Shown here in pieces: positions 26,015 through 33,558 of a stretch of DNA of 33,558 nt (position 1 is its first letter; the number at the start of each line of letters is the position of its first letter). A program made the translations under genes and the position numbers. The DNA is from Promethearchaeota archaeon. GTDB lineage: Archaea > Asgardarchaeota > Lokiarchaeia > Sigyniarchaeales > SOKP01. The stretch covers positions 1,906,082 to 1,939,639 of the forward strand of contig CP070805.1 of assembly GCA_020343655.1 (NCBI GenBank), read 5' to 3'. The notes beneath the pieces were generated by a model. The model saw only the letters and a list, made by a program, of their open reading frames with translations. It was not told the DNA's origin and searched no databases.

Positions 26015-27094
26015 ATGGTTAATTTAATTTGGAAAGACAAAAAATCGGAAGACCCAAAAGTATTTCCTCCTAATTTTTTTCGAGCTTTCGAAAATTACAT
26101 ATTCAATTTTAATGAGAAATTAGATAAAACAAAAACTTCTAAATTTTGGTCGAATAAACTATTTTGGGGAGATTCTTTAGAGGTTTTATATTTTTTGATA
26201 AATAATTATGAAGAAAAAATAGATTTAATTTATATTGATCCCCCTTTCTTTTCTGGAACTAATTATCAAATCAATATTGAGGAAGAAGATAAATTTTACA
26301 ATTCTATTGCTTATTTTGATCACTGGAATAATGATTTAGATTCATATTTACAAATGATATATGAAAGATTACTATTATTCAAGAAAATATTATCAAAAAA
26401 AGGGTTAGTTTTTATTCATTCAGATTGGCATGCTAATCATTACATCCGACTAATTTTAGATGAGGTTTTTGGAGAAAATAGATTTGTAAATAATATTATA
26501 TGGTATTATTATAACAAATATTCTGCAGGAAAGAAAAATCTGCCAAGAGCTCATGATACAATTTTAGTATATTCTAATTCGAGTAAGTACACGTTTAATG
26601 AAATAAGGATTCCTCGTAAAAAACCTAGAAAGCAGTTAATGAGAGTAAATGTCGAGGGAGTATTAAAGAATGTGAAAGATAAGAAAGGTCATGTAAGATA
26701 TCGAACTGTAACAGATAAAAAGTTAGATGATGTTTGGAAGATACCCTGTTTACAACCAGCCTCAAAGGAATGGACAGGATTTCCTACTCAAAAACATCAT
26801 GATTTGCTTGAGAGAATAATAAAACTAGGATCAAATGAAGGCGATTTAATTGCGGATTTTTTCTGCGGTACAGGTACAACTTTATTGGCCGCAGAAAAAT
26901 TAAATCGTAGGTGGATTGGTTGCGATATTTCAGAGTATTCCATATATTTAACAAGAAAAAGAATTTTAGATTATCATAATAAAAATCAAGTTGAATATCC
27001 GTTTGAAATCTATACTCATTTGAATGAAGAAAAAAGAATACTTATTGAATCAGGTTTTTTCCAAAAAAAAATTTCCATAAGAAGAAAAAAATGA
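26015..27094 (+). CDS. Beta-class DNA (N6-adenine or N4-cytosine) methyltransferase, orphan
   Basis: A 359-residue site-specific amino-methyltransferase. The catalytic DPPF (motif IV) at 75-78 in LIYIDPPFFSGTNYQ comes before the S-adenosylmethionine motif FCGTGTTLLAAEKLNRRWIGCDIS at 283-306, so the order is the beta class, as in type III Mod subunits and many type II enzymes. A FWGDSLEVL segment near 50-58 and FTGFPTQKHHDLLERI-type residues near 254-268 are typical of the Mod/type II group. The recognition domain is the region between the two motifs (about 165-245), including a basic stretch (RKKPRKQLMR). No restriction enzyme, S subunit or helicase is in the window, so this is an orphan, perhaps with an epigenetic role. 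It follows the coiled-coil gene by 31 bases. Confidence 0.86.
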   Translation: MVNLIWKDKKSEDPKVFPPNFFRAFENYIFNFNEKLDKTKTSKFWSNKLFWGDSLEVLYFLINNYEEKIDLIYIDPPFFSGTNYQINIEEEDKFYNSIAYFDHWNNDLDSYLQMIYERLLLFKKILSKKGLVFIHSDWHANHYIRLILDEVFGENRFVNNIIWYYYNKYSAGKKNLPRAHDTILVYSNSSKYTFNEIRIPRKKPRKQLMRVNVEGVLKNVKDKKGHVRYRTVTDKKLDDVWKIPCLQPASKEWTGFPTQKHHDLLERIIKLGSNEGDLIADFFCGTGTTLLAAEKLNRRWIGCDISEYSIYLTRKRILDYHNKNQVEYPFEIYTHLNEEKRILIESGFFQKKISIRRKK

Positions 27095-31775: not shown

Positions 31776-33558
31776 ATGAAATGCCTATTCTGTGAAAGTC
31801 AAAAAATTGATTTTACGTGTGAGCGATGTAAATCGAGTTTCTGTATTAATCACATAGCAACAACGGAAACACATGAATGTAGAAAACATAATCTTTTTTA
31901 TTCAAAAGTAAAAGCTATAGAAAGGAATTATAAATGCACAGTTGTTGAAAATAGTGAATGTCCTGTCTGTAATCATCTATTAAGATTAGAAAGATTATCA
32001 TCTGGACAATATTATCTAGAATGTACGAATCCTGAATGCCCTGAAACATGGAATTCATATTTAAAAACCCCCGGATTATTCTTTCCATCAAAGGAAAAAC
32101 TTGCCAGAGAAGCTGTGAGATACAATCTAATCAAAGGGAATAAGCTAATCCTATGTAGTAAAAAATTAAGGCATATAATTGGAAGGGAGGTTTGTCCCAA
32201 TTGTTTTTTGGATTTACTAAAAAGAGCTCCACTTACTAATTTTTCTACTATAATGAATTCCTTTAATATTTCTGCAGAACAAATGATTAAATTTATCGAC
32301 AAATATTTGGAAGAAGAACGAATCTATGGAATTATTGATCAAAAAAATCAGATGTTTTATTACATATCTTCCGAAATGCGTGAAAAAATACTTGCCAAGT
32401 TTCAAGAAGAAGGAATAATTAATGTAGCAGATTTAGGAGTAATGCTTGATATGAGTTCTGAAATTGCTACAAAGGTAATTTACAAGTTAATAAATCAATA
32501 TCAAATAAAAGGCTCATTTTCTTTAGATAAAAAGACATATTATACTCAACAGTATATAATGGATAATTTAATAAAAGAAATCAATACTAAGGGTAGGGTT
32601 TCATTAAAAGATCTTGCGAGTAACTTTAATATTCCAAAAGAACTTGTTAAATCCTTTTGCGTTAATTTAATGAGAGCGAAAGCAGTAAATGGTTTCTTCG
32701 CAGATCGCGGAAATGAAGTGATTACTGCTGACCAAATTTATAAGGACATAAAAAGCTATTCTAAAGAAATGGGATTATTTGAACTCTCAAAACTTGCCTC
32801 AAAATTAAAAATAGCTGTAGAATTGGCAAGAAAAAGCCTCCACGAGTTAATTAAAACTGGTGAAATCAATGGTATATTTACTCAAAGAAGAGAATTCATG
32901 ACAAATAAATACATGGAGAAGAAAATAAAAGAAATAGCGAGAGCTTATAGAACTATGCCTTTAAGAGAACTTGCAAATAGGTTAGGAGTAACAGAATCAA
33001 GTATTGAAGAAAATTTAGCTATGATAATTAGTAAAGGAGACATTGATGGATATATTGATATGTCCAAAAGATCTTTTACAGCGTACAGTGTACCAATGGA
33101 AGCGAAATCTCGAGAGGAACCAAAAGCTTTAGAGCCAATTGATGAAGGTAAAATTGAGGTAGTTCGTGATTATGATTTTATTGGGGGACAATTACACTAT
33201 AAAGTGGCAGTTCGCAATCAGAGTAAAATGGCAATAAATTCAGTAAAAATAATCTTAGATGTTCCATCTAGCTATAAAGTTAAACAATCTTTAATTAATA
33301 TCCCCGTTATAGAAGCTAAAAATTCAAGGGGTGTTGACTTTTACTTAGAGCCTAAAGAATGTGGTATTTCCTCCATCGGTGGTGATGTGATCTATAAAAC
33401 TGCTGACGGAACTAAACATACAAAACATATAAGGAAAAAGGATGTTCAAATTAAATGTCCGCTTGTTGTATCATGTTTATCAACGATTGAAGATGTCCAA
33501 ATATCAATACAAGATATGCCAAATGATGCACGTGCATTTTTAGTAGCAGATTTGGATC
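31776..33558 (+). CDS. AN1 zinc finger - tandem winged-helix - beta-sandwich protein (3' end beyond window)
   Basis: An open frame from ATG at 31776 running off the window, with 594 residues visible. An AN1-type zinc finger is at 3-35 (Cys3, Cys6, Cys15, Cys18, Cys23, His26, His33, Cys35). Further Cys pairs at 62/65, 83/88, 127 and 140/143 suggest one or two zinc ribbons. Residues about 146-440 hold about five tandem winged-helix units with phrases such as GRVSLKDLASNFNIP and YRTMPLRELANRLGV. An extended, beta-rich module at about 458-565 resembles a coat-appendage or immunoglobulin-like sandwich, and another domain begins near 566. AN1 fingers are linked to ubiquitin and stress pathways in eukaryotes. 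The winged-helix repeats resemble those of UFL1 in spacing and style. The resemblance is mine and has not been computed. Confidence 0.85.
   Translation, partial: MKCLFCESQKIDFTCERCKSSFCINHIATTETHECRKHNLFYSKVKAIERNYKCTVVENSECPVCNHLLRLERLSSGQYYLECTNPECPETWNSYLKTPGLFFPSKEKLAREAVRYNLIKGNKLILCSKKLRHIIGREVCPNCFLDLLKRAPLTNFSTIMNSFNISAEQMIKFIDKYLEEERIYGIIDQKNQMFYYISSEMREKILAKFQEEGIINVADLGVMLDMSSEIATKVIYKLINQYQIKGSFSLDKKTYYTQQYIMDNLIKEINTKGRVSLKDLASNFNIPKELVKSFCVNLMRAKAVNGFFADRGNEVITADQIYKDIKSYSKEMGLFELSKLASKLKIAVELARKSLHELIKTGEINGIFTQRREFMTNKYMEKKIKEIARAYRTMPLRELANRLGVTESSIEENLAMIISKGDIDGYIDMSKRSFTAYSVPMEAKSREEPKALEPIDEGKIEVVRDYDFIGGQLHYKVAVRNQSKMAINSVKIILDVPSSYKVKQSLINIPVIEAKNSRGVDFYLEPKECGISSIGGDVIYKTADGTKHTKHIRKKDVQIKCPLVVSCLSTIEDVQISIQDMPNDARAFLVADLD

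Follow-up and report, generated by a model that had tools for sequence, protein, structure and literature searches.

The gene at the end of the window (the whole 33,558-nucleotide stretch that was analysed) codes for a multidomain protein whose winged-helix (WH) rod shows homology to the UFM1 E3 core of eukaryotes, with a DDRGK1 WH followed by UFL1 WHs in a single chain. The rod is preceded by cysteine clusters and followed by an adaptin-type appendage and, in complete relatives, by a Vps28 C-terminal domain (Vps28-C). These pieces are known singly, and their joining in one protein appears to be new among the open-access papers searched, where neither the UFL1/DDRGK1 and appendage/Vps28-C parts as one protein nor a one-chain DDRGK1-UFL1 arrangement was found. 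The following features were assigned:

31776..33557 (+): DDRGK1/UFL1-like multidomain protein, N-terminal 594 codons; the gene runs past the window
31776..31925 (+): N-terminal zinc-finger-like cluster, AN1-like (C3, C6, C15, C18, C23, H26, C35, H38); invariant Cys/His, sub-threshold AN1 matches
31935..32204 (+): second Cys cluster, zinc-ribbon-like (C54, C62, C65, C83, C88, C127, C140, C143); invariant Cys, weak zinc-ribbon matches
32196..32369 (+): WH1, counterpart of DDRGK1 WH1' (bit score to DDRGK1 WH1', AlphaFold)
32370..32546 (+): WH2, an intact WH where human DDRGK1 pWH' and UFL1 pWH form a composite domain
32547..32726 (+): WH3, UFL1 WH1 in the preferred register
32727..32903 (+): WH4, UFL1 WH2 in the preferred register
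32904..33089 (+): WH5, UFL1 WH3 in the preferred register
33147..33458 (+): appendage of adaptin/COP/BBS type, Ig-like sandwich lobe (Foldseek; GAE_BBS1 and Alpha_adaptinC2 weakly matched in Pfam)
33459..33557 (+): first part of the platform (TBP-like) lobe, which continues into the missing tail

The reading frame and its winged-helix rod

The ORF has no stop up to the last codon of the window, and a run of exactly 100 N starts at the next base (window 33559 on; L002:5641-5740). Because this scaffold gap cuts the reading frame, the protein described in the earlier note was incomplete. The complete Lokiarchaeal relatives (n = 20) are 788-790 aa long and 72-87% identical, therefore about 195 C-terminal residues have been lost from the window gene in this assembly; a search of the same assembly did not find the missing tail elsewhere. 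Every statement made here on the C-terminal tail, that is, the remainder of the platform and Vps28-C, is read from complete relatives. The sequence after the gap is unlike that of all relatives, so the junction at window 33558/33559 is considered a scaffold join and the downstream neighbours unreliable. An in-frame tail beyond the N run, evaluated as a membrane anchor, was discarded as a gap artefact. A gene for a JAMM-domain protein with a TPR-like tail lies 3.6 kb past the gap (L002:9379-10995, - strand); relatives do not support this adjacency, and the gene was discarded as a partner in view of the same post-gap sequence.

An AlphaFold model built with a 42-sequence alignment reached a mean pLDDT of 85.8, while an earlier model from 13 close sequences was poor (60.7). 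The deeper model shows exactly five WH units (residues 141-198, 199-257, 258-317, 318-376 and 377-438), in agreement with the earlier note, which had counted about five between 146 and 440. Pfam matches of the window protein were all past the cut-off (PCI, 5.9e-23; E3_UFM1_ligase, 2.4e-19; DDRGK, 1.5e-14), and PF09743, the UFL1 N-terminal WH region, scored 70.5 bits against a curated cut-off of 23.2. Among 227 Asgard genomes the best match of this model was the protein described here, and 14 control genomes had none. When a 25-sequence family profile was compared with the whole PDB, the first five matches were DDRGK1/UFL1 structures (8b9x, 6.7e-14; DDRGK1, 4.4e-6; UFL1, 1e-3), and the DDRGK1-UFL1 chimera 8b9x was also the top Foldseek match (3.7e-12, TMt 0.71) with the shallow and the deep model alike. 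The earlier note had read a UFL1 link from patterns and had warned that the region might match only generic transcription-factor winged helices and that the C-terminal module might not be an appendage. Independent Pfam, PDB profile and Foldseek searches bear out the UFL1 link; the WH matches extend beyond such factors, and the C-terminal module is appendage-like.

The assignment to DDRGK1 is clearest for WH1: its score is 31.3 bits against DDRGK1 WH1' and no higher than 8.5 against the remaining human WHs. The two are reciprocal best matches, and other archaeal WHs reach at most 13.6 bits with DDRGK1 WH1'. The human UFL1 letters used in this comparison were checked against PDB. The alignment with DDRGK1 alone runs to archaeal residue 223, that with UFL1 alone starts at 226 (UFL1 residue 27), and they thus abut inside WH2 without overlap. 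In the human complex, a composite WH is built from half-domains of DDRGK1 (pWH') and UFL1 (pWH) (PMC9627666), and the alignments make the intact WH2 a likely, not a proven, equivalent of it. In a permutation control of human WH order, the natural order ranked only 9th of 120 (55.1 versus 62.6 bits), so sequence alone leaves the order of WH2-WH5 unfixed. We kept the preferred register because the Pfam UFL1 model picks it in 50 of 52 genomes, which are related and not independent, and because the DDRGK1 and UFL1 alignments abut.

Two parts of UFL1 are missing. The E2-binding helix alpha1 is absent, as the match begins at about UFL1 residue 27 inside a continuous WH2 that leaves no room for it, and the C-terminal region (PF25041) had no match at E<=1 and was over the cut-off in 0 of 227 Asgard genomes. 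Therefore, the protein is not a strict UFL1 orthologue. In the alignments, G-[IV]-I-D of the DDRGK motif is kept and Arg265 is not, its position being occupied by Lys in most relatives and by Gln, His, Val, Ile or Asn in others.

Zinc-type clusters, appendage and Vps28-C

The earlier note had claimed an AN1 finger between Cys3 and Cys35. Its ligands are real, in that C3, C6, C15, C18, C23, H26 and C35 are invariant across 21 diverse relatives, and the spacing of the first ones fits C-x2-C-x8-C-x2-C-x4-C-x2-H. The AN1 pattern is C-x2-C-x(9-12)-C-x(1-2)-C-x4-C-x2-H-x5-H-x-C, which the first six ligands nearly fit, but the last pair differs (C35/H38), and Pfam zf-AN1 matched only at E=6.9. Several AN1 structures appear among the few weak PDB matches (E 0.06-1). 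By these sequence criteria the cluster is AN1-like and not proven AN1. The further Cys pairs of the earlier note are well founded, since eight more Cys between residues 54 and 143 are invariant in the 21 relatives.

Downstream of the rod, residues ~458-690 form a two-lobed adaptin-type appendage according to AlphaFold and Foldseek; the beta-rich, appendage-like module previously placed at 458-565 is the first of the two lobes. Foldseek matches of the beta region were COPI, AP2 alpha/beta2, gamma-COP and BBS9/BBS7 appendages (5e-10 to 5e-6). Those to COPI and AP2 appendages, which ranked next after the 8b9x chimera, extended over ~240 columns at 5.5e-10 to 1e-8, with the sandwich and platform lobes both present. 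Sequence alone sees the appendage weakly. The suggested tie to coat appendages was thus upheld by independent searches, including Foldseek.

In relatives, residues ~690-789 are the Vps28 C-terminal bundle, which the earlier note missed because of the assembly gap. The Pfam matches were over the cut-off in a divergent orthologue (4.7e-9) and in the relative P0002 (8.5e-6), and the fold superposes on PDB 2j9v with TMt 0.75 and rmsd 2.0. A profile of the Vps28-C domain alone gave no significant match against PDB (0.18). The N-terminal steadiness-box half of Vps28 is absent, the Pfam match spanning only 87-187 of 188 positions.

Distribution, genomic setting and a UFM1-like cassette

Copies that cover 700 or more of the 790 positions in a single frame were found in 58 genomes, all in the window's order, which does not bear out the earlier description of the protein as a candidate Asgard ancestor of UFL1-type or coat-associated adaptors. 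Sister groups encode related appendage proteins and also zinc-plus-WH arrays without an appendage; two such proteins (L102:6275-8446 and L103:7224-9395) share these zinc clusters, have a long WH array behind them, with matches at 6-443 and ~580-716, and lack the appendage and Vps28-C. In another protein (L107:6611-8491), UFL1-like WH repeats are fused to an ABC ATPase. Of 51 Asgard genomes with a DDRGK match, 47 have it in this protein. Asgard UFL1 and DDRGK1 homologues have been reported as separate (Picard et al. 2023, PMC10183829), and IPR018611, the UFL1 InterPro entry, has been used as an "E3" marker (Hatano et al. 2022, PMC9192718). We infer that the separate homologues of the former study are one polypeptide in this order and that the matches in both studies probably reflect the same models on this protein family; the appendage and Vps28-C are unmentioned in the searched portions of these two papers.

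The window's own genome encodes Vps28, an EAP30/Vps22-like protein and an ESCRT-II Vps25-like protein, and Vps4 and ESCRT-III-like ORFs were read from the sequence beside the ESCRT genes; ESCRT-I, -II and -III, Vps4 and a ubiquitin cassette are thus all present. The ubiquitin cassette (L148:7972-11438, own genome ~1.854-1.857 Mb) includes an E2, a JAMM protein and a membrane protein with a RING-like Cys pattern, and its E1-like fragment spans another N gap. The window gene is not inside the ESCRT or ubiquitin loci of this genome, and its neighbours are not ESCRT genes and differ between families, so neighbour genes were discarded as a guide to function, the context being unconserved. Within the window, 26015-27094 resembles an adenine-type DNA methyltransferase with a DPPF motif; no restriction partner is obvious. 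Elsewhere (L145:1420-2100, own genome 740.9 kb), a protein matched by NCBIfam Sel_Asgard, "putative selenocysteine system protein", resembles a free-standing platform plus Vps28-C; its gene adjoins a SepSecS-like gene, with Vps28 ~7 kb away. The family name may be misleading, and it was not accepted as a function name for the window protein, where the similarity is confined to the tail.

The earlier note had called for a search for UFM1-, UBA5- and UFC1-like genes. Tracing weak UFC1 matches led to a conserved cassette in relatives, consisting of a zinc-ribbon protein of ~360 aa, a UBA5-like E1, a JAMM protease, an 88-aa ubiquitin-like protein (UBL) and a UFC1-like E2. No such cassette was found in 77% of the window's own assembly (1.75 of 2.27 Mb; the assembly is 82% complete), and Pfam UFC1 had no match in this genome. 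The top five PDB matches of the E1 are all UBA5 (2e-43 versus 1e-25 for MoeB). The 26 best PDB matches of the E2 are all UFC1 or so annotated (1.4e-6), its Pfam match is past the cut-off, and it has one invariant Cys, in I-C-H-x-H. The UBL resembles UFM1 weakly by sequence (PDB E=0.96, Pfam 0.044), and Pfam UFM1 is over the cut-off in 0 of 227 Asgard genomes. Its C-terminal V-G is invariant, nearly always as R-x-x-V-G, and mature UFM1 likewise ends ...RDRVG. A free-standing 103-aa UBL of genome G162 (L033:1390-1698), ending ..GIVPRDLLGVFW, is matched both by Pfam UFM1 (E 0.009) and by the cassette UBL profile (22.8 bits), and from these scores may link UFM1 with the modifier of the cassette.

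The cassette is whole or mostly so in ten genomes of the window's order (two in the window's genus, G111 and G119) and in families f12 and f18 (L157:6406-10412 in the window's genus; also L149, L150, L151, L153-L156, L158, L159 and L161-L165). Modifier and E2 are fused in some of these genomes, and EAP30-type ESCRT-II genes and an SPFH gene adjoin some cassettes. The UFC1-like gene occurs in eleven genomes of the order, all eleven of which also carry the WH-appendage protein.

Proposed function and relation to known systems

Our preferred reading, to which we give even chances, is that the protein is a modular adaptor or scaffold that couples a UFL1-type WH core to ESCRT. Vps28-C would dock on ESCRT-II, the appendage would take short peptide motifs, and the zinc modules and WH rod would hold a modified client or an E2, by which the protein would deliver clients to ESCRT. 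Where a UFM1-like cassette is present, it could plausibly serve the cascade as a scaffold, but one that has neither alpha1 nor an operon link. Against the adaptor reading, the gene stands alone, alpha1 is absent, the E-values of Vps28-C are modest and the cassette was not found in the part of the own assembly given above.

That the protein is instead itself the E3 ligase of a UFM1-like archaeal system, with the WH core activating a charged UFC1-like E2 and the tail only placing it at membranes, seems unlikely to us. Homology to the minimal human ligase region and the protein's presence in 11/11 genomes of the order with a UFC1-like gene are in keeping with such a role. However, the protein lacks UFL1 alpha1, the helix on which UFC1 binding depends in human (PMC10937380), and relatives have other residues at Arg265 of the DDRGK motif. 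The co-occurrence says little, given that the protein is present in most genomes of the order, and the cassette was not seen in 77% of the own assembly. We also hold it improbable that the protein is an ESCRT/coat adaptor that takes no part in modifier transfer, an old WH scaffold that UFL1 and DDRGK1 later co-opted. Alpha1, UFL1_C and, by Pfam, UFM1 are all missing, appendage and Vps28-C are also paired in other Asgard proteins (PMC10936438 and our own observations), and a UFM1-independent role of UFL1/DDRGK1 has been suggested (PMC10183829), but WH1 specifically matches DDRGK1, a subunit of the UFM1 pathway. A ribosome or translation factor, comparable to UFL1 on the 60S subunit or to SelB with its tandem WHs, is very unlikely. 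UFL1 binds 60S, SelB (1lva) is among the Foldseek matches (2e-5) and the tail resembles Sel_Asgard, which is encoded next to a SepSecS-like gene; yet the ribosome-binding C-terminal region of UFL1 is absent, the Sel_Asgard score is 29-42 of 132 bits, far under the cut-off, and the appendage and Vps28-C are indicative of membranes. That the winged helices are generic ones of a DNA-binding transcription factor is scarcely credible, for the weak HTH Pfam matches are surpassed by the UFL1, DDRGK and PCI models by many orders of magnitude and no WH transcription factor outscores UFL1 in sequence or fold search.

The protein bears on the origin of UFMylation, for which UFM1 and UFC1 have no accepted prokaryotic source. 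Asgard UFM1/UFC1 were not found in the open-access papers searched, and both are called eukaryote-only in PMC10183829, which raises the question of what UFL1/DDRGK1 did before UFM1. A single archaeal chain with both WH cores plus ESCRT and coat modules offers a specific candidate for this earlier function that can be purified, and it opens the origin of the UFM1 system to testing; the UBA5-, UFM1- and UFC1-like cassettes of relatives, if they hold up, supply the rest of the pathway. As a tentative and rather doubtful extension, the protein may preserve the state that preceded DDRGK1 and UFL1 as separate proteins; a split of the gene within WH2 would have given rise to the composite WH now holding the eukaryotic heterodimer together. 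The original machine would then be an ESCRT-coupled Asgard UFM1-like system, made up of a UBA5-like E1, a UFM1-like modifier, a UFC1-like E2, a JAMM protease and the window protein as scaffold. If so, UFMylation would be wholly of Asgard origin, serving membrane sorting at first, and not a eukaryotic invention.

Among known proteins, the same combination of module types is seen in the Asgard Vps28-C/appendage/HTH-PCI proteins, for which an ESCRT-0-like action that circumvents ESCRT-I has been proposed (Makarova et al. 2024, PMC10936438). The window protein may be one of the architectures in Fig. 6B of that paper, which in the text searched does not mention UFL1, UFM1 or DDRGK1. The appendages of AP2 alpha/beta2, gamma-COP and BBS9/BBS7 are likewise two-lobed, with sandwich plus platform, but lack a significant sequence match to the archaeal module. 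Vps28 shares the C-terminal four-helix bundle, of the ESCRT-II-binding type by fold and sequence, whereas the archaeal protein lacks the Vps28 N-terminal half, and the same genome has a complete Vps28 at another locus. The UFL1-DDRGK1 (UFBP1) heterodimer, the best PDB match by sequence and fold, has the same tandem PCI-like WH rod, formed there by two chains and here by one. Unlike UFL1, the archaeal protein has no alpha1 and no UFL1_C/PTC-loop region; unlike DDRGK1, it begins with a Cys cluster, with no membrane segment recognised on reading; and to what the two share with it, it adds zinc clusters, an appendage and Vps28-C.
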